From assembly GCA_015709675.1 (NCBI GenBank), contig CP054182.1, positions 3,203,448 to 3,267,447 on the forward strand: a stretch of DNA of 64,000 nt. The letters run 5' to 3'. Below, piece by piece: positions 31,491-50,773 of this stretch (position 1 is its first letter; each line of letters begins with the position of its first letter). A program made the translations under genes and the position numbers. This DNA comes from Ignavibacteriales bacterium (GTDB lineage Bacteria > Bacteroidota > Ignavibacteria > Ignavibacteriales > Ignavibacteriaceae). The notes under the pieces were generated by a model. That model did not search any database. It was not told where the DNA came from and worked only from the letters and a program-made list of their open reading frames with translations.

Positions 31491-31825
31491 AGCACCTCAA
31501 AAAACACCGGGTGACTCCTTCCGCATTGTGATGCCGGAGGGCAAAAACTACATTTTCTTACAAAGTGTATCATATTGAGATTTACTTTTATTATGTATTA
31601 TTTCTGTACACATTCACATTCTCAGAATGCTTTTTTTACCCCAATAACCCAATTTTTTTCTGGCCTGGTATTTGTTGGGTCATAGGCAGAGAGAAACTTT
31701 CATTTTGCAGGTTTTGTTATATTAAATGTTAATTATTCATTCATTTTACTGCATTTTTAAGAGTTTTTCACTTTAACAGGCGTCCGGCAGAGCCGGGCAG
31801 ATTTTGATAATTTTTACCGGATTTC
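31491..31825 (+). other. 335-base spacer with a short GC hairpin before the pilin-like genes
   Basis: AT-rich spacer with no gene. An imperfect hairpin around CCGCAT/ATGCCGG (about 31519-31537) lies after the kinase but lacks a T tract, so it is a weak terminator candidate. At 31784-31796 CCGGC-AGA-GCCGG forms a five-pair arm with a three-base loop, placed 29 bases before the next start codon; it could shape the leader of the pilin-like operon. Confidence 0.4.
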
Positions 31826-32311
31826 ATGGGTTACACACAACTGATTCTGTTATTAGGTTCGCTGGTTCTTTTAGGATTGCTCGGACTGACGCAGACAAAT
31901 TCTCTGACCAGAAACACAGAGAATAATATGTATAATCAGGCGCTTTTCACCGGCACCGGCATTGCCCAGTCTTTGCTGGAGCAGGTACTCAGCCGTGATT
32001 TTGACGAGGTTACCATAACCCGGATGCTCACCCTTCCGGACTCCCTTACCGCACCCGGATCACTCGGCAAAGAAAGCGGTGAGACGCTTGTTACCCAGTT
32101 TGATGATGTGGATGACTATCACAATTATACAAGAACTGAGAGTCTGGACGTATTCGGCAATTTCAACATGAAGGTTTCAGTCCATTATATTGTCTCCATG
32201 AATCCGGAGCAAAAAAGCGCCAGCAGAACGTTCATGAAGAGAATTAATGTAAGTCTTTATAACCAGTATATAGGCGATACGGTAACAGTCAACGGAATAA
32301 AGGCGTATTAA
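31826..32311 (+). CDS. Pilin-like membrane-anchored protein A
   Basis: A 161-residue protein that begins with MGYTQL and runs directly into a hydrophobic helix (residues 5-22) followed by an amphipathic helix (TRNTENNMYNQALFTGTGIAQSL is summarised here: helix to about 55) and a small C-terminal beta-rich part. This is the lollipop layout of type IV pilin-like proteins. It has no positively charged leader and no Glu at position 5 after a Gly cleavage site, so it does not fit the canonical prepilin motif. First of three similar genes with spacings of 3 and 12 bases. I do not recognise a named family; the pilin comparison is by architecture. Confidence 0.6.
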   Translation: MGYTQLILLLGSLVLLGLLGLTQTNSLTRNTENNMYNQALFTGTGIAQSLLEQVLSRDFDEVTITRMLTLPDSLTAPGSLGKESGETLVTQFDDVDDYHNYTRTESLDVFGNFNMKVSVHYIVSMNPEQKSASRTFMKRINVSLYNQYIGDTVTVNGIKAY

Positions 32312-32314
32312 GAT

Positions 32315-32884
32315 ATGGATCAGTTAATTACCCTGCTCGGAACATATTTCATCGGAGGATATATTACTCTTTCGATCCTGGTAATGAATTATACCATGAG
32401 CACACGGATATCTGAATTAGTTATTGATAAATACAGCCAGGAAAGCGCGATTACCACCGCCCAGATTCTTGAGTCTGATCTTTATAAGGCTGGATACCGT
32501 TCGGCAGGCAATTCTATTCTGCTTGCGGACTCTTCACAACTCAGGTACATTTCAGATATTGACAATAACGGTACAACTGATACTGTTTATTATTACCGCG
32601 GAACCGTAAATGATATGAGTTCAACAAAAAATCCGGCTGATTTCCGGATTCTGCGCAGAATTAATTCTACAACACCATTAACCATCGGATTTGCAACACG
32701 TTTTGTTTTCTCTTATCAGGCAGAGAACACATCAAATATTAATTTAAATACGCTTAACAGTCAGGCAAACAGGAACACGATTCGTTTTATAACAGTCTAT
32801 GTACGGACCGAATCACCGGACTCAGTTAATTTCGGATACTCCCCCGTTGAGTGGAGAAAACAAATCCGTCCAAAGAATTTATAA
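32315..32884 (+). CDS. Pilin-like membrane-anchored protein B (PilW-like)
   Basis: A 189-residue protein starting MDQLITLLG with one N-terminal hydrophobic helix (about 4-26), then an amphipathic stretch with IDKYSQESAITTAQILESDL, and a globular part containing DIDNNGTTDTVYYYRG, a Ca-binding-like Asp/Asn loop. Size and profile resemble PilW-type minor pilins, but the cleavable leader and Glu5 are missing. It sits in the middle of the trio and ends 12 bases before the next gene, so the three are probably made together as one assembly. Confidence 0.55.
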   Translation: MDQLITLLGTYFIGGYITLSILVMNYTMSTRISELVIDKYSQESAITTAQILESDLYKAGYRSAGNSILLADSSQLRYISDIDNNGTTDTVYYYRGTVNDMSSTKNPADFRILRRINSTTPLTIGFATRFVFSYQAENTSNINLNTLNSQANRNTIRFITVYVRTESPDSVNFGYSPVEWRKQIRPKNL

Positions 32885-32896
32885 GAGAGATAGTTT

Positions 32897-34030
32897 ATGG
32901 GTTATTCAACAATTATTTACATAACCGGTTCAATAATGCTGTTTGGCATTATGTCCCTGAACATTAATTCCGTTATTGGCGATCAGCTTACTCAGTCCGT
33001 AAGCTACTATGAAGATGTTCAGGTAAGAAATATGTGTAACTCGGTCACGGAAATGCTCGCCTCTTCCATTTCCTCCAACACCGGATACCGGGCAAAAACC
33101 TATTCAAAACTATCCATATTCGATGGTTCTGTGTATTACAGGGTTGTGGATACCGTGATTGCCGCCGACTCTCTGGTTAAAATTGAAGTTATTGGTTATT
33201 TTGGCGAGACACCAAGAGTTACTACTGCATATTTTTCCGTGCAGCCCGGTGAGGTTGATCTTCCTGATTTTATGAAAAGCGCTGCAACTTCAAGCGGAAA
33301 ACTCTCACTCTCAGGAAATTCAAAAATAATTGATGCCGGAGACCCGACGCTCAATACTGATATTTATGTCAAGGATGTTGAATTATCCAATAACTCAGTA
33401 ATTGAGGGATTCGTGAATTATTCCTCTTCCTTTACCGGAAAGACAAGTTCGGTAAAACCTAATTCGAATCCTTCCGGATTGCCGACAACAAATAAAATCA
33501 GTGATATACCTGATGTTCCGGATTTCAAGGCGGAAGATTTTAAATCAAAAGCCACGGTCAAGTATGCTTCAAATCTTACGATTAAAAATAGTTCGATTGC
33601 TCTCGGTACAAAAAGCAAGCCGGTTATCGTCTATGTAGAGGGTAATCTTTATATACAGGCAAACGCCAAAATTAACGGCTATGGTGTTTTTATTGTTAAA
33701 GGCAATGTTGAGATGAGCGGAAACGCAACGTTCGGATCTAATGACCCGGATAAAAGCAGTATCGGTTTTTATGCGGAGGGCAATATCAGCACAAGCGGAA
33801 ATGCCACCTACTATGGACAGATGTTCGCGAAAGGGAATATGGAAATGAGCGGTAATTCAAGTATCATAGGAAATGTTGCTGCCAGAGGGAATATTAATAT
33901 GTCAGGAAATAATCAAATTTCATACAGACGTGCGGCAACAAGCCTTACAGAAGAAATCTGGGATGCTTCAAGCGGAGGAGGAGGCGGAGCCGCATCACAG
34001 CGTGCAGCACAACGACTCTATTACGAATAA
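32897..34030 (+). CDS. Pilin-like protein C with beta-solenoid domain (PilX/DUF7305-like)
   Basis: A 377-residue protein. It starts MGYSTIIY with a hydrophobic helix (3-23), then a pilin-like amphipathic helix with RNMCNSVTEMLASS. From about residue 130 to 345 there are repeated short beta-strand units around NGYGVFIVKGNVEMSGNA and YAEGNISTSGNA, spaced about 20 residues, consistent with a beta-solenoid as seen in PilX-like tip proteins. The C-terminus is a Gly run followed by an Ala/Arg-rich tail. The first residues resemble protein A (both MGY), pointing to a shared anchoring mode. A strong terminator follows. Confidence 0.6.
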   Translation: MGYSTIIYITGSIMLFGIMSLNINSVIGDQLTQSVSYYEDVQVRNMCNSVTEMLASSISSNTGYRAKTYSKLSIFDGSVYYRVVDTVIAADSLVKIEVIGYFGETPRVTTAYFSVQPGEVDLPDFMKSAATSSGKLSLSGNSKIIDAGDPTLNTDIYVKDVELSNNSVIEGFVNYSSSFTGKTSSVKPNSNPSGLPTTNKISDIPDVPDFKAEDFKSKATVKYASNLTIKNSSIALGTKSKPVIVYVEGNLYIQANAKINGYGVFIVKGNVEMSGNATFGSNDPDKSSIGFYAEGNISTSGNATYYGQMFAKGNMEMSGNSSIIGNVAARGNINMSGNNQISYRRAATSLTEEIWDASSGGGGGAASQRAAQRLYYE

Positions 34031-34042
34031 GAATCATTGATC

Positions 34043-34074
34043 AAAAAAGCCGTCCCTTTCCGGACGGCTTTTTT
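34043..34074 (+). terminator. Intrinsic terminator after the pilin-like trio
   Basis: Arms AAGCCGTCC and GGACGGCTT with a 6-base loop, preceded by A residues and followed by a T run; it can also act on the minus strand. Confidence 0.92.
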
Positions 34075-34111
34075 CATTTTAAAGGCGGTAATACCGTTTT
34101 TAATTATTTGG

Positions 34112-34119
34112 TATATTTG
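34112..34119 (+). promoter_or_regulatory. Possible -7 element of the gene at 34141
   Basis: TATATTTG matches TAnnTTTG and lies 21 bases before the start codon. No TTG is present at the normal upstream distance, so support is partial. Confidence 0.3.
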
Positions 34120-34140
34120 ATGAGATAATCCGGATAAATA

Positions 34141-36240
34141 ATGAAATCTGTTTTTATACTACTTTTGCTGCATTCGGTCCTCATGGCGCAGTCATTACCT
34201 CTCCCCCCGAGGCCTGCTAACGCCCCAACCGGTAGCCAGATGGTCACAATACTTACTCCTCTGACTTTGGAATTGCGCGAAAACGAAATCTACAACCAGA
34301 TACTCAGCGGTAATGTGCCGGATTTTATGAGAAATCTTGTGCCGGTAATTACCACAGTCAGCGGTAATTCCGTTACCTATTTTGTGATTCCTGAATATCT
34401 TGCTCTGGGCTCCAATGATGATTATTTTCTGATTCCGATGACTCCCCTGCTGGCACAGAAAATAGCAAACGCGATAAACTGCGTTCTGCCAACCAAACGG
34501 ATGGTTGACCAGATATATACATCATCTGCTTGCAAACTCCGGCCTCAACCGATTCCCCCCAGCGGACAAATGACCACCGTACCCGTTTTCAGCCAGCATA
34601 ATGATTCGGTTAAATCACTGCGTCTCCCCCTGCTCGGGCAGTACCCGCTCGGCACTCTTGTAGGCGGTACCAAAAAAGACGTAATCATTTCCAACAGGAT
34701 ATATACCAACCTGAATCCGAATACCCCGAAGCCGGTTGTAATTTATGGATGGCATCAGTTAAACGGAAGCCCGATCCAGCCGGTATATAACGGCCACGGT
34801 GAAACCTATGCTGACTACAGTCACGGAATACGGCTGGTGCTCGACTCTTTTGTGGTTAACAGCAGTTACAAAAAATATGCTGCTCTGCTCGCAGATCCTG
34901 TGTTGTCAGTTGTTATCAGTGATGAAGGCGTTATCAGCAAACCGTATTATACCCTCTCCGGATCAACCACTCCGCAGCCGCAGATATTTGCCGTCAGGGC
35001 TTCCTCAGCATCACAGATAACAGTAAAAGCACAGTTTACCCCTGCTTCCATTTATAAGGCCTTCTACGGCACCTCACCCGCAGCTTTTAACGACTCAACA
35101 GACACTTTCACTGATTCGATAATGATCACCGGACTCACTGAAGGTCTGATATATTATGTCCGAATCCGTGCAATGGGGCAGGCGGGTTATTCTCCTTTTA
35201 GTGAGGTGCTTGCTGCAGTTCCTTCTGCCGAACCTAATCAGATGATTATAGTCAATGGTTTTGACAGAGCGGTAACCGGTAATACCAACGATTTTGTAAA
35301 AAGACACGGTCCCGCTTTTCTTCAGGCAGGACTCCGCTTTGATGCCTGCACCAACGAAGCGGTAATAACAGGCCTTCTCTCACTCAAATCATACAAGATA
35401 GCTGATTACATCCTCGGCACGGAGAGCACGGCAAATGAAACTTTCAGCAGTGATGAACAATCGAAGGTTATTGAGTTTCTTAAAGGAGGAGGATATCTTT
35501 TTGCATCCGGTTCGGAAATTGCCTGGGATCTTGACAACCGGGGCAGCGCATCAGATAAGGATTTCATCCGCCTCTATCTCAAAACACAGTATATAAACGA
35601 TGCTCCCGGCGGACTCGCTAATACCTATTATACCGCATCGGGTTTCCCGGGTGAAGTATTCAGCGGTGTTAATTCCATCACGTTTGATAACGGAAATTTC
35701 GGGACATATAATGTCGGCTATCCCGATGTTATTCAGGCAATTAACGGCAGCACCAATGTCATGCAGTATAGCACCGTCGGAGGGATTGCGGCAATTGCCT
35801 ATGCAGGGCTTTTTCCGGCAGGGACGGCTCAGGGGAGACTGATTGTCATGGGATTCCCTTTTGAGACGATTTATCCTGAAGCCAAACGGAATGAAGTCGC
35901 TCAGAAAATAGCTGCATTTTTTGGAAGTTCGACAGATATTTTCTCCGATGAATCATCAGACCCACCCTCCGGATATGCAATCAGTTCTTATCCGAATCCG
36001 TTTAATCCAATAGTTACCATAAATGTAAAAGTTGATGAGGGAGGATATTACGCAGTTACGATATATACCATGCTCGGAGAGGTGGCTGTCCTGCTCTATG
36101 ATGGATTTCTGCTGGCAGGTAATTATTCCTTTCAATGGACTCCATATAACGGCACAACCAGATCACCTTCAGGAGTTTACATAGCCACATTGAGCGGAAA
36201 TGGTATACTGAAAACAAAAAAAATGGCTTTAATAAAGTAA
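34141..36240 (+). CDS. Large T9SS-sorted secreted protein with FN3-like domain ('xanthan lyase'-annotated family)
   Basis: A 699-residue protein with signal peptide (1-17). Residues about 30-270 form an unnamed domain with LPTKRMVDQIY, TVPVFSQHNDSV and HGETYADYSHGIRLV; proteins with this pattern are often labelled xanthan lyase in Bacteroidota, but I see no lyase catalytic set. A fibronectin type III-like segment follows (about 285-365), then a flavodoxin or amidase-like alpha/beta region with FLKGGGYLFASGSEIAWDL, and a T9SS sorting domain with SYPNPFNP. It follows the pilin-like trio across a terminator. Function is open; a glycan- or peptidoglycan-linked surface role is inference. Confidence 0.65.
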   Translation: MKSVFILLLLHSVLMAQSLPLPPRPANAPTGSQMVTILTPLTLELRENEIYNQILSGNVPDFMRNLVPVITTVSGNSVTYFVIPEYLALGSNDDYFLIPMTPLLAQKIANAINCVLPTKRMVDQIYTSSACKLRPQPIPPSGQMTTVPVFSQHNDSVKSLRLPLLGQYPLGTLVGGTKKDVIISNRIYTNLNPNTPKPVVIYGWHQLNGSPIQPVYNGHGETYADYSHGIRLVLDSFVVNSSYKKYAALLADPVLSVVISDEGVISKPYYTLSGSTTPQPQIFAVRASSASQITVKAQFTPASIYKAFYGTSPAAFNDSTDTFTDSIMITGLTEGLIYYVRIRAMGQAGYSPFSEVLAAVPSAEPNQMIIVNGFDRAVTGNTNDFVKRHGPAFLQAGLRFDACTNEAVITGLLSLKSYKIADYILGTESTANETFSSDEQSKVIEFLKGGGYLFASGSEIAWDLDNRGSASDKDFIRLYLKTQYINDAPGGLANTYYTASGFPGEVFSGVNSITFDNGNFGTYNVGYPDVIQAINGSTNVMQYSTVGGIAAIAYAGLFPAGTAQGRLIVMGFPFETIYPEAKRNEVAQKIAAFFGSSTDIFSDESSDPPSGYAISSYPNPFNPIVTINVKVDEGGYYAVTIYTMLGEVAVLLYDGFLLAGNYSFQWTPYNGTTRSPSGVYIATLSGNGILKTKKMALIK

Positions 36241-36288
36241 ATTATCCCTTTCTGAAAAATCTGACCGGACCATTTTCATCCAGCCAGC

Positions 36289-36431
36289 GAATCCTCAGGA
36301 TTCAAATTTAATTTTTTTTGCACATTCGATCTCTGACAACCTGTGATTCCTCCGGATTCATATTCATTTTTTGCACATTCGTATACTTCCAACCTGTAAA
36401 TCCTCCTGTATTAAATTCATTTTCACTATCG
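36289..36431. repeat. Degenerate tandem repeat, about 54-base period
   Basis: Two full copies and a partial third. Shared blocks are GGATTCA (36298, 36354), GCACATTCG (36320, 36373), CAACCTGT (36337, 36390) and ATCCTCC-like starts (36291, 36346, 36400). Copy one begins with the hairpin GAATCC-TCA-GGATTC. It lies in the 363-base spacer 36241-36603, which holds no gene. Confidence 0.65.
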
Positions 36432-36523
36432 TTTCTGCGTTTTTAGCCCGCATTCACCGATTTTAAGGATTCAGTCAGATTTTGGCAAAAGCTAAAAAGC
36501 AGGACTTACGTTCATCTTCGGAA

Positions 36524-36555
36524 ATTCATACTTCATACTTCATAATTCATAATTC
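36524..36555. repeat. TTCATAC/TTCATAA short-unit array
   Basis: Four to five units of a 7-8 base sequence (ATTCATAC, TTCATAC, TTCATAA, TTCATAA). Closely related arrays occur at 43523-43559 and 48922-48955, always between genes. Confidence 0.6.
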
Positions 36556-36603
36556 TTTTCGCTATTTTTGGGTTGTGTCCTTTTCAATTAAAGGAGGTGC
36601 CCT

Positions 36604-37350
36604 GTGAAAGCTGTTATTACCGGTATGAGCGGGACTGTAGCCCCGGCTCTTTCGAATTATCTTGTTTCAAAGAATGCAGTTGTGGTCCGCTGGGATCGTA
36701 ATATCATTCCGCCGGAAAATCAGAAGGCCTGTTTTGATTTCCTTGCCGGTGTTCAGCCCGATTATCTATTTCATTGCGCAACCGGATCTCCTGCCTGGGC
36801 AGAACTCATTTCGCGCCTGTGCCACCGCCTTGGCATTAAAGTTATATATACAAGCTCCGTCTCCATTTATTCCGGTTCGCAGCGGGGCCCGTTTACCATT
36901 CATGACCGCCCCAGCCCTGATGATAATTACGGAGTTTATAAATTAGAATGTGAACAAAGGATGCTCTCCTTTAATCCTGATGCAGTAGTAGCACGGCTTG
37001 GATGGCAGATAGGTACCGAACCCGGTAAAAACCATATGGTAAGCCATCTTGATTCGGTCTTTGGGAATGAAGGAAAGATTACAGCAAGCACCAGGTGGAT
37101 GCAGGCATGCTCATTCCTAGAGGATACCGCATCCTGCCTTGCGGATACCCTCACTTCCAAACCCGGCGGTATTTATCACGTTGATTCAAACGACGGTCTT
37201 AATTTCTTTCAGATTGTCACAGGGCTAAGAACAATACTTGGCAGAGACTGGGTGATTGAGGAGGGAGATTTTCCCGATTTGAATAATCTTATGCCTGATG
37301 AAAGGATTGCCATAAAAAAGCTTTCTGCCCGGTTGGGAATAAAGCTCTGA
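36604..37350 (+). CDS. RmlD-like NAD(P)-dependent sugar-nucleotide reductase/epimerase
   Basis: A 248-residue short-chain (extended) dehydrogenase. The N-terminus ITGMSGTVAPALSNYL gives the nucleotide-binding Gly motif (7-11), YTSSVSIY supplies the catalytic Ser region and NYGVYKLECEQ the YxxxK pair. It most resembles dTDP-4-dehydrorhamnose reductase (RmlD) but is about 40 residues shorter than RmlD, and no rml genes are nearby, so the substrate is open. It starts with GTG, set by an excellent ribosome binding site AAAGGAGGTG six bases upstream, one of the few strong ones in this window. Confidence 0.75.
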   Translation: MKAVITGMSGTVAPALSNYLVSKNAVVVRWDRNIIPPENQKACFDFLAGVQPDYLFHCATGSPAWAELISRLCHRLGIKVIYTSSVSIYSGSQRGPFTIHDRPSPDDNYGVYKLECEQRMLSFNPDAVVARLGWQIGTEPGKNHMVSHLDSVFGNEGKITASTRWMQACSFLEDTASCLADTLTSKPGGIYHVDSNDGLNFFQIVTGLRTILGRDWVIEEGDFPDLNNLMPDERIAIKKLSARLGIKL

Positions 37351-37405
37351 TTTACGAAAAATTGATCCTCACCGGCAAAACGGTGACTGAATTTTCGTAA
37401 ATTTG
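37351..37405 (+). promoter_or_regulatory. Inverted repeat overlapping a TAnnTTTG promoter element
   Basis: TTTACGAAAA (37351-37360) and TTTTCGTAAA (37392-37401) are exact inverted repeats; inside them CACCG (37370-37374) pairs with CGGTG (37381-37385). The right arm overlaps TAAATTTG (37398-37405), which ends 3 bases before the ATG at 37409. It could be a terminator-like hairpin for the upstream gene or an operator over a leaderless promoter. Confidence 0.45.
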
Positions 37406-37408
37406 GGT

Positions 37409-38008
37409 ATGAAAAGAACTTTTTCACTTCTCTTTCTTTTCGTTTTTATTCTGCTTAGTATTCCGGTTACGGGGCAGAAACAACCGCCGTCTGATAAGGC
37501 ACGGGGCATTTTTTTCGCTATCGGGCTGGGTCCGAGGCTTCCGGTCGGGGATTTTGGAAAGGTCTCCTTCCTCGGGTACGGATACAATATGGAGCTTTCC
37601 TATACTGATAATGAATATCTCCCCCTTTTTCTTTTCGGCAAAATCGGGTTTGAGCAATACTCTGCTTCCCAGGATTATTATCAGGCATCTGAATATTCAC
37701 ATTTTTCAACAAATATGCTTCCCCTCACAATAGGAGTGCGCCACTTTTTCTCCCCATTTATGGAGCGGGTTGTTATTTTTATGCCGGTTCTTGAAGTTTC
37801 TTCTACCCTGCTGATTTATCAGAATTACCACCGCTTCAGGACGAACCGCCCTGGATATATAGAGGAAGGAACAAAACTGGGGTTCTCAGCAGGTCTGGGA
37901 GCATCCATGTTTTTGCTGGACATCATGACCAACTATCACTACTTCCCCAATAATCAGTTTATTTCATTCGATCTTAAAATCCGAATTCCTTTAGTCGCAA
38001 CCATCTGA
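37409..38008 (+). CDS. Small outer-membrane beta-barrel protein
   Basis: A 199-residue protein with signal peptide (about 1-22, ending VTGQ), then alternating hydrophobic strands with aromatic ends (FFAIGLGPRLPVGDF, YNMELSYTD, FLFGKIGFEQY, SAGLGASMFLL) and a final strand ending in IRIPLVATI, which fits an eight-stranded barrel. No closer family is recognised. The start is ATG 37409; a TTG at 37403 is less likely. It is separated from the next gene by 7 bases, so it may share a transcript with the enoyl-CoA hydratase, although their roles do not obviously connect. Confidence 0.6.
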   Translation: MKRTFSLLFLFVFILLSIPVTGQKQPPSDKARGIFFAIGLGPRLPVGDFGKVSFLGYGYNMELSYTDNEYLPLFLFGKIGFEQYSASQDYYQASEYSHFSTNMLPLTIGVRHFFSPFMERVVIFMPVLEVSSTLLIYQNYHRFRTNRPGYIEEGTKLGFSAGLGASMFLLDIMTNYHYFPNNQFISFDLKIRIPLVATI

Positions 38009-38015
38009 GTTAACC

Positions 38016-38798
38016 ATGAAATTTGAAACCATTCTTTTTACTTCCGAAAACCACATCGCAAAAATCACCATTAACCGGCCCGATAAGCTGAATGCGCTGA
38101 ATGCCACGGTTATGAAAGAACTCTCAGAAGTTTTTGATTTCCTCTCGAAAGATGACAACAGCCGGGTGGTGATTATAACCGGTGCAGGACCAAAGGCATT
38201 TGTTGCCGGTGCGGATATTTCTGAAATCAACAAACTTGACACCATTACGGGAAAGTCATTCGCGGAGCTTGGGCAGGAGGTTTTTAATAAAATTGAGAAG
38301 CTCTCTAAACCCGTGATTGCCATGGTTAACGGCTTTGCTCTTGGCGGCGGATCTGAACTTGCCTGGTCATGCCATATGCGTTTTGCATCAGCGAACGCTA
38401 AATTTGGCCAGCCGGAAATTAACCTCGGCATTATTCCCGGATATGGCGGCACACAGCGGCTTCCCCGGCTGCTTAATCAGGGATTCGGCTATTACTATAT
38501 TCTGACCGGGGACAATATAGATGCTGAAACAGCTCTTAAACTCGGGCTGGTGCAGGGAGTTTTCAGCTCTGAAGAGCTTGAAGCCTCCGTAATGAAGATT
38601 GCTGCAGCAATTGCTTCAAAACCGGCTGACATTGTTTCCTTTGCAATGAAAGCGGTTCATGCGAGCGGTGATTTCGGCCTGAAGGAAGGGCTTGCCTATG
38701 AAGCATCGCTTTTTGGGCTTTGCTGCGGAACTGATAACTTTAAGGAAGGAACCAGCGCATTTCTCGAAAAAAGAAAAGCAGAGTTTAATAAAAAATAG
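38016..38798 (+). CDS. Enoyl-CoA hydratase (crotonase family)
   Basis: Hydrates trans-2-enoyl-CoA in fatty-acid or branched amino-acid breakdown; cytoplasmic. It has 260 residues. The oxyanion-hole segments are AFVAGADISE (61-70) and ALGGGSELA (108-116), and both catalytic glutamates are kept: E114 in GGGSEL and E134 in GQPEINLG, 20 apart as in the rat enzyme. The C-terminal helix ends in FLEKRKAEF. No other beta-oxidation genes are adjacent. The next gene is in the same reading frame, separated only by the TAG stop and a short untranslated stretch. Confidence 0.92.
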   Translation: MKFETILFTSENHIAKITINRPDKLNALNATVMKELSEVFDFLSKDDNSRVVIITGAGPKAFVAGADISEINKLDTITGKSFAELGQEVFNKIEKLSKPVIAMVNGFALGGGSELAWSCHMRFASANAKFGQPEINLGIIPGYGGTQRLPRLLNQGFGYYYILTGDNIDAETALKLGLVQGVFSSEELEASVMKIAAAIASKPADIVSFAMKAVHASGDFGLKEGLAYEASLFGLCCGTDNFKEGTSAFLEKRKAEFNKK

Positions 38799-38852
38799 TC
38801 CTTCAGAAAATTTGAAAGCTCAGGTTCATTTAATTCTCCCGGAAGGCGTCCT

Positions 38853-39869: not shown

Positions 39870-39905
39870 AACCGGACCAAAATTAATAATTTGATAACAG
39901 AGTCC

Positions 39906-43374: not shown

Positions 43375-43393
43375 TCTGAAAACAGATTAAAAC

Positions 43394-43433: not shown

Positions 43434-43481
43434 ATTATATAACTTTATTTTTTTTGCGGGCAGTTTTTGCAGCTACTGGTA

Positions 43482-43559
43482 AAAGGACATTAACGACTTA
43501 AAGGACATAAACGACGTCTCTGAATTCACAATTCACCATTCACCATTCACAATTATTCA
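43482..43559. repeat. Two short tandem arrays before the lepB stop
   Basis: First an 18-base unit twice, AAAGGACATTAACGACTT (43482-43499) and AAAGGACATAAACGACGT (43500-43517). Then ATTCACA/ATTCACC units (43523-43559), the same type as the arrays at 36524 and 48922. The second array runs over the lepB stop codon. Confidence 0.6.
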
Positions 43560-44494
43560 AGTACCATCATAATTCTCTCAAGCCTGACAGAGCCAAGCAG
43601 CTTGAAAATATTAAAGAATGGTATTTCTCTGTCCCACGAAAACAGTACCAGAAATGCTGAACCAACCACTGCATCACGGGAAACCGGCCCCCAGAATCTG
43701 CTGTCATAACTGTCATTGCGGTTATCTCCGATCATAAAGTAATAATCTTTCTGCACAGTATAAGAGTTAACCGGCTTACCTTTTATGGTCACAGTACCTC
43801 CTTTCAATTCTACCACCCTTTCGCCATGTTCGCGGTCAATAAAAGTTCTCCACTGCATATAATTTTCCGGCGTAAGTGTAATTTTCATTCCTGCTTTCGG
43901 CACCACATAGGGGCCGTAATTATCTTCATTCCACGGTGCGCCTGCCGGATAAATATAATCTTCCCCTCTGTCAGCAGGTTTTGAGTAAGGAAGTGCATAA
44001 TGAACATACGGAGGCACCGGGAACTCCTTTCCATTGATATAAGCAACACGGTTAATGATTTGCAGTGTATCACCCGGCATACCAATGAGGCGTTTTACAT
44101 AGTTTACATTGAGTTCCTTTGGCACCAGATCTTCGCGGTCACCAGGGAATTCAAAAACCACAATATCCCCTGCTTCAGGTTCACGGATACCCGGGATAGT
44201 GAAATACGGGAGCGCAATTTCGGTAAAAGGTATATATCTCGGAGAAGATGAGCCGTAGATGAACTTATTCACTATCACAAAATCACCCACCAGAATAGTA
44301 TTCTCCATTGAACCAGTGGGGATTCTGGTGTTCTGAATAAAGAATGTTATAATGAAAAGTGCGGCGATTAGAGCAAAACCCAGTGATTTAAAAAATTCTA
44401 TGACTTTTTCTTTTGGAGTTTTTTTTGCCTGTGCGGCAAGTTCTTCGTCTGTGCGGATCCCCAGAATTTTTCTTCCGATTTCCTTAAAATTCAA
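43553..44494 (-). CDS. lepB: Signal peptidase I
   Basis: Inner-membrane serine protease that removes Sec signal peptides. It has 313 residues. A transmembrane helix lies near 37-52, after a basic N-terminus. The catalytic Ser is S62 in PTGSMENT and the catalytic Lys is in NYVKRLIGMPGD; the later box GDNRNDSYDSRFWGPV is intact. Compared with E. coli-type enzymes it has an insertion of about 60 residues between boxes C and D (around 165-225), as is common in Bacteroidota. It serves the many exported proteins of this window. Confidence 0.96.
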   Translation of the reverse strand: MNFKEIGRKILGIRTDEELAAQAKKTPKEKVIEFFKSLGFALIAALFIITFFIQNTRIPTGSMENTILVGDFVIVNKFIYGSSSPRYIPFTEIALPYFTIPGIREPEAGDIVVFEFPGDREDLVPKELNVNYVKRLIGMPGDTLQIINRVAYINGKEFPVPPYVHYALPYSKPADRGEDYIYPAGAPWNEDNYGPYVVPKAGMKITLTPENYMQWRTFIDREHGERVVELKGGTVTIKGKPVNSYTVQKDYYFMIGDNRNDSYDSRFWGPVSRDAVVGSAFLVLFSWDREIPFFNIFKLLGSVRLERIMMVLE

Positions 44495-44547
44495 TGTTGT
44501 TCCTTAATATATAATTTTCTTTTATAAAACGTTGTTGTTAACCGGTC

Positions 44548-44614
44548 ACCCGCTGCGCGGGTTCACAGATCAGAACAAATCTGATTTGCTATTAATTGGT
44601 CACCGCTACGCGGT
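44548..44614. repeat. Pair of related triloop hairpins in the lepB upstream spacer
   Basis: ACCCGC-TGC-GCGGGT (44548-44562) and ACCGC-TAC-GCGGT (44602-44614), both framed by GGTC on the left and TCA on the right. Arm sequence and length differ but pairing is kept. Between them lies a looser CAGAT...ATCTG hairpin. Confidence 0.65.
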
Positions 44615-44653
44615 TCAGTAATGCCTGATAAATTTTGAATCCTCAGCATATAA

Positions 44654-44738
44654 ATCAATCCCAGAGGGATTGCAGATTGGTAGAAAACGCAATCAAACAA
44701 AAACCAACCCGACTCCGGAGGAGTCGTATATTGTCGGC
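44654..44738. repeat. 85-base intergenic repeat, copy 1
   Basis: Near-identical to 44808-44892. It carries two triloop hairpins, CAATCCC-AGA-GGGATTG (44656-44672) and CGACTCC-GGA-GGAGTCG (44710-44726). No open frame or target-site duplication is visible. Confidence 0.8.
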
Positions 44739-44749
44739 CGTTCTCATCA

Positions 44750-44769
44750 GGACAGGTCGCGACCTGTCC
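44750..44769. repeat. Perfect 20-base palindrome
   Basis: GGACAGGT-CGCG-ACCTGTCC lies between the two 85-base repeat copies in the spacer 44495-44910, which contains no gene. Confidence 0.75.
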
Positions 44770-44807
44770 CTACGGTGTTATGTCAACCCGAAATCATCCG
44801 GATTTAT

Positions 44808-44892
44808 ATCAATCCCGAAGGGATTGCAGATTGGTAGAAAACGCGATCAAACAAAAACCAACCCGACTCCGGAGGAGTCGTATATTGTCGGC
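44808..44892. repeat. 85-base intergenic repeat, copy 2
   Basis: Second copy of 44654-44738. Its first hairpin has a changed loop and arm edge (CAATCCC-GAA-GGGATTG, 44810-44826), the second is identical (44864-44880). The copy ends about 20 bases before the gatB stop. Confidence 0.8.
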
Positions 44893-44910
44893 GGATTGTC
44901 GAACGGTTTT

Positions 44911-46353
44911 TTATCCGTTAAGCAGCATTTCCTTTAATAATTCATTTACCATTGCCGGATTTGCCTTTCCTTTGCTTTGCTTCATAACCTGACCGACAAA
45001 ATATCCGAAAACCTTTTCCTTGCCGCTTCTGTATTCCTCTGCTTGCGAGGGTGCTGCTTCAATTACGGAGCGGATAATCTTTTTAATTTCTTCCGGGTCG
45101 GAAACCTGAATCAGGTTCTTTTCCTTAATGATTGCCAGCGGTTCTTTGCCAGTCTCAACCATATCAGCGAATACCTCTTTGGCAATCTTGCTGCTGATGG
45201 TGCCTTTGCCAATCTCGTTTATCAGGTCAGCCAATGACTGCGAAGAAACGGGAGACTCTTCCGCACCCGCTTTCCGTTCATTCAGCACCTTCATCAGGTC
45301 AACCATTACCCAGTTAGACGCCAGTTTGTATTCTTTTGTGCGGGCGGTTACCTGCTCAAAATAATCAGCGATGGATTTTGACTGCGTCAGCACTCCGGCA
45401 TCATACGCAGGAATCTGGTACTCCTCCATGAACCTCTCCCTCCTTTTTTCCGGCAGTTCAGGGAGGTTTGAACGGACTTCATTTATATACTCCTCTGAGA
45501 GCACGACCGGTATCAGATCAGGATCCGGGAAATAGCGGTAGTCATGCGAATCTTCCTTGGTACGCATCGGATGCGCGGTGTTGGTATCAGCATTCCAGAG
45601 AAGGGTTTGCTGGATAATTTCTTTCCCATCCTCGAGCAGATCAATCTGCCGTGCAATTTCATATTCAATAGCACGTTCCACACTGCGGAAGGAGTTCATA
45701 TTCTTCACTTCTGTTTTAGTGCCGAGCTTTGTCTCCCCTTTCTGCCGGACGGATATATTGGCATCACAACGCAGCGACCCCTCCTCCATATTGCCGTCAC
45801 AGATTCCCAGATACTGCACAATCTGGCGGATAGCCGAAAGATAGAGCACCGCTTCCTCAGCCGTGCGTATATCCGGCTCGCTTACAATTTCAATGAGGGG
45901 GACACCGGTGCGGTTGAGGTCAACTAATGTCGCGCTGCCACGGTCGTGAATTGATTTACCTGCGTCTTCCTCAAGATGAATCCGGGTAATTCCGATGGTT
46001 TTTTCTTCGCCGGACTGCGGATATACCTTAATATATCCTCCGGTGCAGAGAGGCTCGTCATATTGCGAGATCTGATACCCTTTCGGGAGGTCAGGATAAA
46101 AATAATTCTTTCGGGCAAACACTGATTTTTCAGCGATATGGCAGTTGACCGCAAGCCCCATTTTTACAGCATATTCAACGGCTCTTTTATTTAAGACCGG
46201 AAGCACACCGGGATGCCCGAGGCAGACCGGACAGACATTGCTGTTTGGTTCATTGCCAAAATCAGTACTGCAGCCGCAAAAGATTTTGGTCCGGGTGGAA
46301 AGCTGAGCGTGCACTTCCAGCCCGATAACCGCTTCATAATTTCCGTATAACAA
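44911..46353 (-). CDS. gatB: Asp-tRNA(Asn)/Glu-tRNA(Gln) amidotransferase subunit B
   Basis: Part of GatCAB, which amidates mischarged Glu-tRNA(Gln) or Asp-tRNA(Asn). At 480 residues it is full length: YEAVIGLEVHAQLST at the start, FCGCSTDFG and NVCPVCLGHPGVLPVLN with the zinc cysteines, FYPDLPKGYQISQYD, HLEEDAGKS, DLNRTGVPLIEIVSEPD, and a C-terminal tail domain ending NPAMVNELLKEML. Its presence implies that glutaminyl- or asparaginyl-tRNA is made by the indirect route. The GH13 gene ends 14 bases upstream, so the two share a transcript. Confidence 0.97.
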   Translation of the reverse strand: MLYGNYEAVIGLEVHAQLSTRTKIFCGCSTDFGNEPNSNVCPVCLGHPGVLPVLNKRAVEYAVKMGLAVNCHIAEKSVFARKNYFYPDLPKGYQISQYDEPLCTGGYIKVYPQSGEEKTIGITRIHLEEDAGKSIHDRGSATLVDLNRTGVPLIEIVSEPDIRTAEEAVLYLSAIRQIVQYLGICDGNMEEGSLRCDANISVRQKGETKLGTKTEVKNMNSFRSVERAIEYEIARQIDLLEDGKEIIQQTLLWNADTNTAHPMRTKEDSHDYRYFPDPDLIPVVLSEEYINEVRSNLPELPEKRRERFMEEYQIPAYDAGVLTQSKSIADYFEQVTARTKEYKLASNWVMVDLMKVLNERKAGAEESPVSSQSLADLINEIGKGTISSKIAKEVFADMVETGKEPLAIIKEKNLIQVSDPEEIKKIIRSVIEAAPSQAEEYRSGKEKVFGYFVGQVMKQSKGKANPAMVNELLKEMLLNG

Positions 46354-46367
46354 GATTTCAGCAGTCC

Positions 46368-47738
46368 TTACTTCTTATCAGCTTTGCTGAATGCATAAAC
46401 ACGGTGCTCACCGGGCTGAAGTGTTACAGAAGCTTCTTTGGCAAGAGCGATTTTTGCACCACTGAATATATCCGTCATCTCAGGAAGTCCTTTTACTGAT
46501 TTTATAACGGTTGTCTGCGGAGATGAAGTCACATTAACCACAACCAGAACTGCATCAGAGCCGTTTCTTCTGAGATAGGTAATCAGCTTTCCGTTGCTGT
46601 GCTTTATTGGTTCCATGGAACCGCTCTTTACACTGTGGTGGAGTGCTGAGTTATCCCGCTTGAGCATATTAAGTTTCTTAAAAAAATCAGTTCGGCTTAA
46701 GTCGCTCCAGTCAACAGGATCTTTTTCAAAAAATGCCAGCCGTTTTTTATTGCCGGCTTCCTGACCAGTATATATCAGGTGCATACCGGGCAGGGTGGCC
46801 GCAAGTACGCTGTAAGCAAGGGCTGCATCGCCAAAGAGTTCAAACTCGGTGCCGTTCCAGGAGTTTTCATCATGGTTGGAAGTGAATCTCATCCTGATAC
46901 CCTGCGGCGGATAAGGGCTGTCCTGTTTCTTAACTTTTTTCAGGAAATCTTCCGGTTTTTCCTTCCCCTTTGCCATATCCTTCATCAGGTTAAAGGTATC
47001 CCATGCATAGCTCATGTGGAATGCATTTTTATGAAGAGCAACTTCGTGAGCTTCCGCCAGCATAAAGACCGGTTTAATGGCTGAAAGTTTTTTATACACA
47101 CTTTCCCAGAAATCAGTCGGGACCATAGCGGCCACATCGCATCGGTAACCGTCAACATCGAACTCCCGCACCCAGTATTCCAGAGCATCGGTCATGGCAA
47201 GGCGCATTTCCTTATTGCTGTAATCAAGCTGAATTACATCCGACCAGTCAGTCCCTCTTGGAGGTGTGAATTTTCCTTCTTTATCCTTAACATAAAACTC
47301 AGGATTGGATTTTGACCAGGGATTATCCCACGCGGTGTGGTTTGCCACCCAGTCGAGGATGATGTACATTCCCATCGAGTGAATCTCTTTCACCAGTTCG
47401 CGGAATTCCTCCTTTGTGCCGTAAGCCGGATCTACTCCCTTGTAATCCTGTACTGAATAGTAGCTGCCCAGAGTGCCCTTCCGGTTTTCCGCTCCGACCG
47501 GATGAATAGGCATGAACCAGAGAATTCCGACCCCCATCTCCTTCAGGCGGGGCAGATGTTCTCTGAATTCCTTTATGCTGCCGCCCGGGCTGAACTGGCG
47601 CAGATTAACCTCATAAATGGTCTTATTATGACTCCAGTCCGGCGGTTTGATGTTGGAGTAAGGCTTGGCGAAAAAAGAGAACTGAAACAGTCCCGAAAAA
47701 AACAGGGCCAAAATGGTAAAAACCTTGAAATTCAGCAT
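46368..47738 (-). CDS. Secreted GH13 alpha-amylase-family enzyme
   Basis: A 456-residue glycoside hydrolase with a signal peptide (about 1-24). The GH13 catalytic triad is visible: nucleophile D201 in VDGYRCDVA, acid/base E229 in MLAEAHE and D290 in TSNHDEN. N-terminal YEVNLRQFSPGGSIKEF and WFMPIHPVG are typical of the maltogenic or neopullulanase-like branch. The C-terminal part (about 370-456) is a short beta domain. There is no T9SS tail, so it probably stays periplasmic. It likely cuts starch-derived oligosaccharides and may work with the GH57 protein at 51186. Cotranscription with gatB looks incidental. Confidence 0.9.
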   Translation of the reverse strand: MLNFKVFTILALFFSGLFQFSFFAKPYSNIKPPDWSHNKTIYEVNLRQFSPGGSIKEFREHLPRLKEMGVGILWFMPIHPVGAENRKGTLGSYYSVQDYKGVDPAYGTKEEFRELVKEIHSMGMYIILDWVANHTAWDNPWSKSNPEFYVKDKEGKFTPPRGTDWSDVIQLDYSNKEMRLAMTDALEYWVREFDVDGYRCDVAAMVPTDFWESVYKKLSAIKPVFMLAEAHEVALHKNAFHMSYAWDTFNLMKDMAKGKEKPEDFLKKVKKQDSPYPPQGIRMRFTSNHDENSWNGTEFELFGDAALAYSVLAATLPGMHLIYTGQEAGNKKRLAFFEKDPVDWSDLSRTDFFKKLNMLKRDNSALHHSVKSGSMEPIKHSNGKLITYLRRNGSDAVLVVVNVTSSPQTTVIKSVKGLPEMTDIFSGAKIALAKEASVTLQPGEHRVYAFSKADKK

Positions 47739-47861
47739 GAAAAACGGCTTTATTTTGATAAATTACTTAAATTCAGGAGCAGAAATATACTGAAAAGAGG
47801 AGTAAGAATTTATTATTTTGGTATAGTGTTCCAGGAGTTTTCCTGTGAAGCGCAGTTTCAC

Positions 47862-47869
47862 TAAATTTG
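47862..47869 (+). promoter_or_regulatory. Possible -7 element of gldC
   Basis: TAAATTTG matches TAnnTTTG, 31 bases before the gldC start. No TTG at the expected distance, so support is partial. Confidence 0.3.
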
Positions 47870-47900
47870 TATAAATGTAATAATGGAGTCAGCCACCGAT

Positions 47901-48266
47901 ATGGCGCAGCAGTCTGAGATAAAATTCCGTATCACCTTAGATGAATCAAAAATTCCGGAAAAATTAGAGTGGAGTGCCACCGATTCGGAAAACGAAGATT
48001 TTTCGGAATGCAAAACCATGATGCTCACTCTCTGGGACGCAAAAGAGCGGGCAACCATGAGCATTGACCTCTGGACAAAAGATATGATGATTGACGATAT
48101 GAATATCCTTTTTCATCAGACTCTCCTGAAACTCGGGGATACCTACAACCGCGCAACGAACAATTTTGAAATCAGTGAAATGTTCAGAAAGTTTGCTGAT
48201 GAATTCGCGGTTAAACTTGAACTGCTCCCGAACTCCCCTGTTAAAACCACTGAGAAAGATTTATAG
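47901..48266 (+). CDS. gldC: Gliding-motility-associated protein GldC
   Basis: A 121-residue cytoplasmic protein recognised from the GldC pattern: QQSEIKFRITLDE at the start, WSATDSENEDFSECK in the middle and SIDLWTKDMMIDDMN, followed by a C-terminal helix. The start ATG 47901 gives the usual M-A-x-x-SEIKF beginning; an ATG at 47883 would add six residues. GldC is linked to gliding and the T9SS in Bacteroidota, though its exact role is unclear. GldB, its common neighbour, is absent. A small exported protein follows after 11 bases. The many T9SS tails in this window agree with a working T9SS. Confidence 0.82.
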   Translation: MAQQSEIKFRITLDESKIPEKLEWSATDSENEDFSECKTMMLTLWDAKERATMSIDLWTKDMMIDDMNILFHQTLLKLGDTYNRATNNFEISEMFRKFADEFAVKLELLPNSPVKTTEKDL

Positions 48267-48277
48267 AAGGTTACAAA

Positions 48278-48808
48278 ATGAAGGCAAAACTTTTATTCAT
48301 CCTCTTTTTCGTTTCCGTTTTCGCTCAGGCGCAGAATCCTGTAATCAATTTTAAAAAGCTGCAGACATTTTTGCCTGAGATGGTGATTACCGATTTCACC
48401 CGCTCAAAACCGGAGGGGATGACCCAGACAGCAATGGGAATTTCAACCTCTGAAGCATCCGTTGTATATAACTCAGATAAGCCGGATTCTGCCGGAAATA
48501 CCATTTCCGTGGAAGTAACCATATCTGACAACATTTTTAACCCATATGTGGTCATGCAGTTTACCATGCTCGGGGAAAATTATGAATCAGAGTCCGAGGA
48601 TGGTTACGAAAAATTCACAAAAATTGCAGGCAAATATCCCGGAAAAATCTCTGTTACCTCCACTGACTTCAAAAGCTGCCAGCTTGATTTTGCCGTTGGA
48701 ACCAGAATTTTAGTGAGTCTCCGCTGCAACGGTTCAGATGACATTGCCATTCTGAACAAATTAGTTGACTCAATGAAGTTAGACGAACTGGCAGTGCTGC
48801 AGCCGTAA
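48278..48808 (+). CDS. Small exported protein of unknown function
   Basis: A 176-residue protein with a clear signal peptide (1-18, ending VFAQAQ). The mature part has no cysteine motif apart from two single cysteines (FKSCQLDF and LRCNGSDD), an FLPEMVITDFTRSKPEG segment and a final helix (AILNKLVDSMKLDEL). The layout resembles small periplasmic proteins that estimate or bind a ligand, but I do not recognise a family. It is in one transcript with gldC, which may hint at a role in envelope or motility functions, and it ends before a strong terminator. Confidence 0.65.
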   Translation: MKAKLLFILFFVSVFAQAQNPVINFKKLQTFLPEMVITDFTRSKPEGMTQTAMGISTSEASVVYNSDKPDSAGNTISVEVTISDNIFNPYVVMQFTMLGENYESESEDGYEKFTKIAGKYPGKISVTSTDFKSCQLDFAVGTRILVSLRCNGSDDIAILNKLVDSMKLDELAVLQP

Positions 48809-48828
48809 CAAAAAATTTTACATAGTAA

Positions 48829-48863
48829 TAAAAAAAGGGAGCAAATGATTTGCTCCCTTTTTA
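48829..48863 (+). terminator. Terminator of the gldC transcript
   Basis: Nine-pair hairpin GGGAGCAAA-TGA-TTTGCTCCC with A residues before and T residues after. Confidence 0.92.
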
Positions 48864-48921
48864 GTTTTAAGACCGTATAGCTATCAACCAAAGAACAATT
48901 AGGAAAGCAACAACCTGCTCG

Positions 48922-48955
48922 AATTCATAATTCATACTTCATACTTCATAATTAT
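48922..48955. repeat. TTCATAC/TTCATAA short-unit array
   Basis: Array of ATTCATAA, TTCATAC, TTCATAC and TTCATAA units, nearly the same order as at 36524. It abuts the decayed sorting-domain tail at 48952. Confidence 0.6.
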
Positions 48956-50336
48956 TTCAAGAGGGTCATCTTCCTCGTAATACTCTGCTCCTTACCTTCG
49001 CCCTATTGCGATGTATGCCTTTCTGTTGTTATAGCCAACTGCCACTATTGTGTTTTTATAAATTTTACACTTGTAAAAACTGCCATTTTGAAATCCCATT
49101 TCATCAATGAAGTTTTTCCATTTTAAACCATTAAAGTGAACTATTTCTGTAAATGATCCGCTCACTACTACATCATTAAAGTCTTGAGCATCTACAGATT
49201 CGCTGTAATATCTTGCAATTGAGCCAGTTGGAAACTTTATCCAAGACTCTTTTTGATTAAAAATATCCGATTTAGTGAATATTCCATCACCAACCACATA
49301 ATATTTTAATCCATTTATACTCGCAATATCATCCGCTCCGGATCTTAAACCACCAATACTAAGTTCGGCTACCTTATCCTGTTCACTTACATGATAAATT
49401 TTCGGGCTAACCGTCTGATAAGCTAATGAAGCAATCCTGAAGATATCTGTACGCTTATGTCGTAAATTGTTGACAATTGTCATATCCTGAATCCTCAGAT
49501 CGGTATCTCTGGTAAAATCTTTCCAGACTTTACCTTCCCTTTTCAGTAATGTACCTCTGCTTCCATAAACATATAAACTGCTATCGTTTTTAACGAAATC
49601 CCAAATATTTCTCCAACTAATATTCCAGCAACACTACAATCAATTTGAACGTCATTCCCATTATAAACTCCTAAAAATTTCCATTGGTAAAGTATATTTT
49701 CTGCCCTGATCTGGTAGCGCCAGCGTTTAGGTAAGCAGATTGAGCCGGTTCACAATCTGAAAAAGTGTTAAATCTTTTCTGTTCCCATTCTTGTCCATTC
49801 CAGTGAACAGCGTTAAAGAGATTGTACGAATAAACTGAAGAGTCCTCAAATTTAATTTCTCCAAAAGCCCAAATATTATTCTCGTCAATTATCTCCACAT
49901 CATATAAAGTGCTGGTACCTACCTCCCCGAAAGACCAGGTTTGCCAGGTAAAGTTCTGGCTGGTTTCTTTTAGTGTTGTTATCTGAGCTTGGTTGGAACC
50001 TTTGACAGCTTCATCTTTTTCGTTGAGAATAAATGTCTGAAAGGATAATGACTGTTCTGGTTGGAAGCCACTTAGCAAAAGAAGAGTGTCGTTTTTTGCC
50101 TTTATGATTGTTTTAATTTTAACACCATTTTGCCGAATTTCAACATTTGCCGGCTGGATAAGATTGCTGAACTTAAGCTCAAGCCATACCTCGGTGCAAG
50201 AGGCATCTAATGCTTCAATAGTAATTTCCGTCTGCCCATACGGGCTGGCGGGTTCTGAGCAGGAGTAAGAACTTAGGGTGATAAACCCCATAGCCGCCCA
50301 GAAGAGCAGTTTGGTATGTATAACACGAACGGGCAT
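48952..50336 (-). pseudogene. Decayed gene for an exported beta-propeller-like protein with T9SS remnant
   Basis: The 5' part (50336-49671) encodes a signal/lipoprotein start (SSYSCSEP) and a body with SFGEVGTSTLYDVEIIDENN and AVHWNGQEWEQKRF, then stops. Downstream the same protein continues in two other frames: LGVYNGNDVQIDCSV just after the stop, then WDFVKNDSSLYVYGSRG and on into 49483-48992 with KYYVVGDGIFTK and VVHFNGLKWKNF. At the end, after GRR and a stop, another frame reads SITRKMTLLK and stops at 48952, which looks like a T9SS tail. At least two frameshifts are needed to restore one protein. Sequencing error cannot be excluded, but several in one gene makes decay more likely. Confidence 0.65.
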
Positions 50337-50702
50337 TGTTGCCTCATTTCTGTTTGTGAATAGAAACTTTTTGTGCCAAAACAGTTAGTTTCAGCTACAT
50401 AAATACATCAAAAACCGCTAAAAAATGCAGTTTTGCAGTATTCTTAAAAATCTTGGCTAAGAAATTAAAAGGAATGAACCCGGTCCCTTGTTCCTCACCC
50501 ATCACTTCCCAAAAGGTATTTCATTTACCCAGAAAAATGAAATTGGCAAAGATTTTCTTGATGCCGGAACAAAATTAGGCAGAATCTAATTGATTGTCAA
50601 AAAAAAATGATTTTTTTGTAATGCACGGTTAAACGGATAATGCCTCTCTAACACAGAGAATTTATTTGTGTGGTGGTTTTTATTAGTTAGAGCTGTTATA
50701 TA

Positions 50703-50773
50703 CGATTCCTCCGGAATCGGAGTGGTGGTTGGGTGGTTTTGTTTTCAACCAAGATGTGAACCCACCGGGTTCA
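50703..50773. repeat. Two triloop hairpins in the 50.3-51.2 kb spacer
   Basis: CGATTCC-TCC-GGAATCG (50703-50719) and TGAACCC-ACC-GGGTTCA (50757-50773), seven-pair arms and three-base loops, of the same design as those near 44.6 kb. The part 50337-50700 before them is AT-rich and shows nothing else. Confidence 0.65.

Follow-up and report, generated by a model that had tools for sequence, protein, structure and literature searches.

Short hairpins with changing arms recur between the genes of the window, the whole stretch of 64,000 nt analysed here (Ignavibacteriales bacterium, assembly GCA_015709675.1, contig CP054182.1, positions 3,203,448 to 3,267,447 of the forward strand). These hairpins are probably repetitive extragenic palindrome (REP)-like elements of a branch of Y1/HUH transposases, TnpA-Y1 subclass 1.2, which is related to the insertion sequences (IS) IS200/IS605 and would mobilise them. 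At the level of sequence, comparison across genomes establishes the repeats as real, multicopy, almost all intergenic, often tandem, inward-facing at transposase genes, and followed by a tag that varies with the transposase clade. One unit comprises a stem of 5-7 bp, a loop of 3-4 nt, usually 8 further nt, and then TAG[A/C]AA on the same strand. Two families, named here after their tags (GG and TTAATAG), are found in the window.

A table in Quentin et al. (2018; PMC6006769) gives REP 'no' for TnpA-Y1 subclass 1.2, whose signature in that paper is Y---Q--HH with WQ; the automatic REP search described there required GTAG or GTGG 0-2 nt 5' of the stem. Genes of this type are common in the phylum, yet the published account of subclass 1.2 gives no DNA partner. 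If the hairpin is their substrate, intergenic repeats that had lacked an explanation would gain a mechanism, and the protein-tag pairs found in nature would amount to a specificity code for a single-strand DNA endonuclease, directly testable in vitro.

Tagged hairpins at subclass 1.2 transposase loci

Public genomes were scanned with three of the four Y1 proteins of the source genome, and the best 80 of at least 505 confirmed stretches were taken as loci. Record titles place most of these in Bacteroidota and name, besides, some Ignavibacteria, two anammox Planctomycetes (Jettenia, Brocadia) and one Acidobacterium; tagged hairpins reach some Planctomycetes and Acidobacteria (L072, L141, L109). 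The Y motif Y---Q--HH of subclass 1.2 occurs in 79 of the 80 proteins, and the HUH motif (counted with a regular expression wider than DH[IV]H) and WQ occur in all 80 each.

Tagged hairpins were searched with arms of at least 5, a loop of 3 or 4, and TAGNA downstream. TAGNA stood at offset 8 in 156 cases and at any other offset in at most 14. A tagged hairpin at offset 8 or 9 was present within 1.2 kb at 58/80 loci, 57 of them mainly with offset 8, compared with a mean of 1.3 loci in ten shuffles, 3/80 far flanks, and 0/20 control loci around other Y1 genes (class-2 motif Y...NP in 16, no motif found in 4). The nearest tagged hairpin faces the gene in 36/44 cases upstream and 36/39 downstream; the median distances are 78 and 79 nt, respectively. 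The arrangement known as a REPtron, in which inverted copies of a repeat family stand on both sides of its Y1 gene, is found at L009 of the source genome and at the inward-facing loci.

Hairpin density also rises near these genes. Within 1 kb, loop-3 hairpins reach 0.760/kb, against 0.140 farther out and 0.071 in shuffled sequence; the respective values are 0.350, 0.106 and 0.087 for loop 4 and 0.229, 0.064 and 0.113 for loop 2, and loops 5-8 show no rise near the gene at the 80 loci. Density alone was dropped as a specific marker, since other Y1 loci show some hairpins too.

The 144 distinct units have 63 arms, with 5 perfect pairs in 103 units, 6 in 29 and at least 7 in 12. The innermost arm base is C in 144/144 (G or C had been required), and the next base is C in 90%. 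The main loops are GTA, GAA, GTTA, AGA, AGC, ATA and GTCA. After the 7-nt arm, position +1 is A in 99% and +2 is T in 83%; the search imposed TAGNA but neither of these two bases. No base exceeds 0.46 in the 15 nt before the arm of these units, where a 5' guide was sought; the GT[AG]G found 0-2 nt 5' of the hairpin in canonical REPs, as described in PMC6006769, does not accompany them.

Several loci carry a second, untagged hairpin type between the tagged hairpin and the gene. Two flanking types, the tagged A and a type B (TTGCCCC-NNN-GGGGCAA with an AACAAA-like sequence), were noted at L128, L111, L098, L115, L117 and L124, and the layout at L128, A-B gene B'-A', resembles left and right ends. 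Other perfect palindromes with TTAA/TTCA/TGAA-type centres, for example TATAGCCCCAGGC-TTAA-GCCTGGGGCTATA at L164, accompany the subclass 1.2 genes L010, L152, L159, L163, L164, L167 and L168, and are possibly a second REP type of this subclass.

Transposases of the source genome and relation to known systems

The Y1 transposase family has four matches in the source genome (L009, L010, L011, L012). The Y motif with WQ is exact in L009, L010 and L011, and L012 has RH; the proteins of L010, L011 and L012 are 34-59% identical to that of L009. A preliminary description of the window, made from the letters alone, had proposed looking for a linked transposase, and L009 answers to this: a TTAATAG-family tandem array lies at its left and another, in opposite orientation, at its right. 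Judged by this arrangement, the TTAATAG family (represented in the window by the hairpins at 44548 and 44602) has its REPtron at L009.

The transposases described here carry the subclass 1.2 signature motifs and are mainly Bacteroidota by record titles. What differs from the published table is the presence of a partner hairpin without a 5' GTAG/GTGG, found at 58/80 loci and at 6/24 further loci, which contradicts the description and not the protein membership. The preliminary description knew no named element of this design. The general kind, a REP with a Y1 HUH transposase, is known, although the published classification gives no REP for this branch of transposases. A search of later literature on subclass 1.2 or Bacteroidota REPs returned no title describing this repeat, with preprints and most subscription journals outside its coverage.

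In the broad sense of many intergenic palindromic copies, the hairpins qualify as REPs. Hairpins without a GTAG guide near Y1 genes are also known from the REP-like structures of class 3 and subclass 2.6, but according to PMC6006769 class 3 differs in having a 5' CnGA foot and subclass 2.6 in having proteins with Y...NP. The REPs of TnpA-REP/RAYT systems (class 2; E. coli, Stenotrophomonas) are likewise short intergenic palindromes with many clustered copies, a flanked transposase gene and coevolution. However, their guide is a 5' GT[AG]G, whereas the present units have a 3' tag 8 nt past the stem and no 5' guide; neighbouring copies here are mainly direct repeats, and the transposase carries Y...Q..HH rather than Y...NP.

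The ends of IS200/IS605 elements (IS608, ISDra2) also involve an HUH Y1 transposase acting on hairpins, with a site about 10 nt 3' of the hairpin, and the tag position presumably corresponds to the right cleavage site of IS608. This presumed resemblance of a hairpin and 3' site to an IS right end would suit a reading of the repeats as defective ends (miniature inverted-repeat transposable elements) of ordinary IS200/IS605 elements, that is, as IS debris rather than as REPs of a separate branch. It would also fit a profile search against Protein Data Bank sequences, in which 8/8 matches were transposases, with 2xm3 the best and ISHp608 (2a6m) included. We consider this reading unlikely, given the near-universal subclass 1.2 Y motif noted above, the diversity of the four source-genome genes, which are not identical copies, and the absence of the offset-8 tag in 5 loci of Y1 proteins without the subclass motif (a small sample). 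Unlike IS ends, the repeats are dispersed and form tandem arrays, with no conserved 5' guide.

Tag type and transposase clade

The two bases before TAG vary among loci (AA, GG, TA, TG, TT and others). A quick maximum-likelihood tree was made of the 66 proteins with tagged hairpins, from 109 loci (43 without tagged hairpins were left out). On this tree the tag dinucleotide changes 17 times, compared with 38.5 when shuffled, and 0/200 shuffles were as low. All 17 GG rows fall within one 23-row branch with support 99. A His at the QI[H] site goes with a GG tag in 17/18 rows (the remaining row has GT), and GG occurs in 0/48 rows without His. A four-row group inside the GG branch has Tyr for His at this position, and its tag is AA or CA, not GG.

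A further proposal, to which we give slightly less than an even chance, is a third recognition mode of REP transposases. The stem sequence would be free, the protein would read the loop and the 3' tag at exactly 8 nt, and one residue (His versus Tyr/Phe, QI[H/Y/F]) would switch between GG and AA/TA/TT; this mode would be spread over Bacteroidota and some Planctomycetes and Acidobacteria. We take the QI[H] site to lie in beta-1 of the fold, which would then fit the guide contacts of the E. coli enzyme. For that enzyme, TnpA-REP, Corneloup et al. (2021; PMC8266576) report that the GTAG guide is contacted by residues around beta-4 and in regions that include beta-1.

Copies, intergenic position and arm covariation in the source genome

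A covariance model over the copies had been suggested in the preliminary description. Run on the 4.21 Mb genome, such a model (R1; 38 positions, built from 46 rows) recovers at least 103 copies with E <=0.001, a lower bound because 150 of 1389 candidates were scored, and up to 46 of these copies are the model-building rows. The 103 copies form 36 clusters, 13 of these being single copies. Neighbours no more than 130 nt apart share a strand in 54 cases and lie on opposite strands in 7; spacings of 53-56 nt account for 37 of the 54 same-strand cases. For the TTAATAG family, the pattern GAACCCGC-NNN-GCGGGTGACCCGTTAATAG gives 61 genome matches with at most 3 mismatches, including the window hairpin at 44548, compared with 0 for the reversed pattern. 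Linkers are alike within several arrays, which speaks against an array of clustered regularly interspaced short palindromic repeats (CRISPR). A large TTAATAG-family array was noted at G000:C1:459082-461096, with several units 113-114 nt apart or at roughly double that distance.

The proposed clustering between genes holds genome-wide: 99/103 copies lie outside open reading frames (ORFs) of at least 120 aa and 4/103 inside them, whereas 70% of points drawn at random from these stretches fall inside. Intergenic position and strong pairing would also be expected of elements selected as RNA (terminators, attenuators or mRNA 3' protectors), the transposase link then being incidental. This is improbable, since the TAG[A/C]AA tag stands at a fixed offset and follows the transposase clade, and in many genomes inward-facing copies stand some 78 nt away from transposase genes. 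As the preliminary description had observed, no T runs follow the hairpins, a judgement by eye with no terminator scan run. Rfam gave no match on the hairpins in window positions 31000-51500, with sub-threshold matches elsewhere. Use of the hairpins as RNA by the host could coexist with the REP role.

The link between fold and tag is best seen when the genome is searched for the tag with no hairpin demanded. This search found 31 sites with at most 2 mismatches, and the reversed control gave 2. In the 17 nt directly upstream, 22/31 sites form at least 6 of 7 pairs around a 3-nt loop, with 12 different 7-nt arms, and 0/31 sites reach 6 pairs when the test is slid by 1, 2 or 3 nt; therefore, fold and tag are linked, and the arms vary with pairing kept. 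The other 9 sites comprise 2 duplicated tags within an array, 1 decayed copy and 6 sites elsewhere without a hairpin. Arm covariation is 0.517 in 46 source-genome units (shuffled, 0.205, 0/500; slid, no more than about 0.10) and 0.803 in a 36-row cross-genome alignment, against 0.256 shuffled (0/500), both scores being inflated by rows chosen mostly or partly for pairing. The tag-first test is the fairer one because the covariation rows were found partly by pairing. The earlier suggestion that the fold and not the sequence is kept thus applies to the arms, but not to the whole unit, whose most constant part is the 3' tag at its fixed distance and whose loop varies within limits. Very improbable, and the weakest of the alternatives, is quasipalindrome correction (template switching in replication) without any fold-requiring protein: short palindromes do self-correct during replication, and this may be a route of arm drift within a family, but it accounts for arm pairing only and not for the tag, offset, loop restriction, tandem period or transposase flanks.

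Co-occurrence in the phylum and turnover between genus mates

A related protein is present in 111/247 phylum genomes at E 1e-10, a threshold that possibly admits some IS200-type genes, and in 76/247 at E 1e-40 (counted by eye). A cross-genome covariance model (R2) was built from triloop rows only (36/50; 14 tetraloop rows were dropped as out of register) and is insensitive at phylum level, where 27 candidates were scored per genome. With the source genome excluded, the gene is present in 25/26 R2-positive genomes and 85/220 others (Fisher p 5.5e-9); at the protein bound of 1e-40 (by eye) the counts are 19/26 and 56/220 (p 2.6e-6), both p values being uncorrected for shared descent or genome size.

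A genome of the same genus (G247; draft, 88% complete) holds 28 copies. At its counterpart of the 44.6 kb site of the window, the first hairpin is present and the second (CGACTCC) is missing from both repeats, of which the second repeat sits at a contig end. Both hairpins of the 50.7 kb site are present with identical arms; the counterpart of 50757 has a changed loop, that of 50703 has the same loop, and the linker has diverged. In a spacer with both flanks matching, the source genome has six copies, mostly CGACTCC-armed, and G247 has one TGAATCC-armed copy and one decayed copy. Compared in this way, the two genomes carry different numbers and arm types of copies in orthologous spacers, which shows fast turnover, mechanism aside.

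Proposed mobilisation and points against it

By homology to the IS200/IS605 and TnpA-REP enzymes, the hairpin unit would fold during a single-stranded DNA phase, and the transposase would bind the stem shape, loop and tag rather than the arm sequence and cleave at or near the tag. Cleaved copies would be joined elsewhere or into existing arrays. The arms would be free to drift while pairing holds, with loop and tag retained.

A number of observations weigh against this interpretation. No replication-strand (lagging-strand) preference was seen by eye in the copy list, with dnaA at 1.200 Mb. No tagged hairpin lies within 1.2 kb of the gene at 22/80 loci, and among further subclass 1.2 loci (best Pfam score) 6/24 have one and 18/24 do not. 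Other Y1 loci carry triloop hairpins as well (17 in 20 loci, 0.429/kb), and only the tag sets them apart. R2 matches at E 0.001 occur in 27/247 genomes, compared with 111 that have the gene, which reflects either weak sensitivity or true absence, and one genome (G224) has four R2 matches and no subclass 1.2 gene at E 1e-10. Within the source genome, the TAG of the L009 family stands at offset 9 instead of 8, the 1.2 kb around L010 and L011 are free of tagged hairpins, and all four Y1 proteins have Tyr where a GG tag goes with His. On the tree, the GG tag and the His residue each change 3 times, with one independent pair on supported branches, and the independent-pairs test is below significance; because these changes are few, the link between His and GG is a lead rather than statistical proof.

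Several of the 24 further loci have palindromes with 2-4 nt loops instead of tagged hairpins, and subclass 1.2 is therefore not uniform. The GG-tag family has no predicted cognate transposase in the source genome and may be mobilised weakly or not at all at present; it may be an orphan, or it may be served by L011.

Hairpin families in the window

All ten triloop hairpins listed in the preliminary description are present in the window at the positions given there, and the comparison with shuffled sequence proposed there bears out their excess. A hairpin was counted if it had a 3-nt loop, arms no shorter than 6 bp and three or more G/C among the inner six; the spacers were 31 stretches of at least 40 bp (6850 bp in total) outside a chosen ORF list. 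The spacers hold 9, whereas 500 dinucleotide shuffles averaged 0.50 and never exceeded 3 (0/500 as high). Eight of these are listed hairpins and the ninth (56089) is new; 31784 and 44602 have 5-bp arms and are hence outside the count. The excess is not weaker for loop 2 (5 vs 0.55; 0/500) and is weaker for loop 4 (3 vs 0.51; 9/500) and loop 6 (3 vs 0.32; 2/500). Such hairpins also occur in coding regions, where the preliminary description had met none as far as it read, but their count there is not above chance (9 vs 7.25 expected from shuffling).

Nine of the ten listed hairpins are family members. The tenth, 31784, has no match in the search for either family, and one tag-like stretch near it has 3 mismatches and another offset. 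The single shared design also proved to mix two families, and what remains of it is that arms differ with pairing kept. The GG-tag family includes 44656, 44710, 44810, 44864, 50703 and 50757, plus the decayed 36289; the minus-strand hairpins 44548 and 44602 are members of the TTAATAG-tag family. Taken in the proper orientation, 44656, 44810 and 50757 are followed by a ATTGGTAGAAAAC-like tag whose TAG starts 8 nt past the 7-nt arm, and the tag is decayed at 44710, 44864 and 50703. The layout is tandem at about 54 nt. Seven of the 103 R1 copies lie in the window, an eighth match (E 0.0029) covers 50703, and all eight are in the R1 alignment. The site at 36289, previously read as a single hairpin, holds two minus-strand copies and perhaps a third. 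The copies are listed below; each R1 E value belongs to a row used to build the model.

36271..36308, minus strand: hairpin with decayed tag, GG family, the listed 36289 hairpin (R1 E 2.7e-5; one of the 46 rows, the match being partly by construction)
36327..36364, minus strand: decayed copy of hairpin and tag, GG family (R1 E 9.3e-7)
36380..36411, minus strand: possible third decayed copy, one period on (by eye, without a model match)
44535..44564, minus strand: ACCCGC-GCA-GCGGGT with GACCGGTTAAC, TTAATAG-tag family, listed 44548 (3 mismatches to the family pattern; sister copies lie on either side of the L009 transposase gene)
44589..44616, minus strand: GAACCGC-GTA-GCGGTGACCAATTAATAG, TTAATAG-tag family, listed 44602 (read directly, no match to the family pattern; similar units in L025 and L059)
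44652..44689, plus strand: CAATCCC-AGA-GGGATTG with CAGATTGGTAGAAAAC, GG family, listed 44656 (tag with 0 mismatches; R1 E 4.0e-10)
44706..44743, plus strand: CGACTCC-GGA-GGAGTCG, second unit of a tandem pair, decayed tag TATATTGTCGG, listed 44710 (R1 E 1.9e-6)
44806..44843, plus strand: CAATCCC-GAA-GGGATTG with CAGATTGGTAGAAAAC, GG family, listed 44810 (tag with 0 mismatches; R1 E 4.1e-9)
44860..44897, plus strand: CGACTCC-GGA-GGAGTCG, second unit, decayed tag, listed 44864 (R1 E 1.3e-6)
50686..50723, minus strand: CGATTCC-GGA-GGAATCG, second unit, decayed tag, listed 50703 (weak R1 E 0.0029 at 50694-50723)
50740..50777, minus strand: TGAACCC-GGT-GGGTTCA with CATCTTGGTTGAAAAC, GG family, listed 50757 (R1 E 4.1e-8)

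Other repeats in the window

A canonical GTAG-type REP, GTAGGGACAGGTCGCGACCTGTCC, lies within the hairpin array at 44750-44773 on the minus strand. No class-2 gene for it was found among the four Y1 matches of the genome, all of which have the class-1 type motif. The sequence GTAGAGACACGCCGCGGCGTGTCTCTAC, which resembles GTAGGGACAGGTCGCGACCTGTCC, occurs in L218 of G247, and imperfect versions occur in L059 and L009.

A 14-bp perfect hairpin at 48832-48862, with a 3-nt loop and a T-rich 3' arm, lies between convergent ORFs and is probably an ordinary terminator outside the repeat family. Short repeat runs of the ATTCATACTT/ATTCATAATT type occupy the spacer at 36519-36556, and runs of the same kind stand beside the array in L049 and L213. 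A dispersed repeat that ends in GACAGATTGTTATCTGTCTGTACGAA or a similar sequence occurs twice at 50780-51010 and has matches on several contigs of G247.

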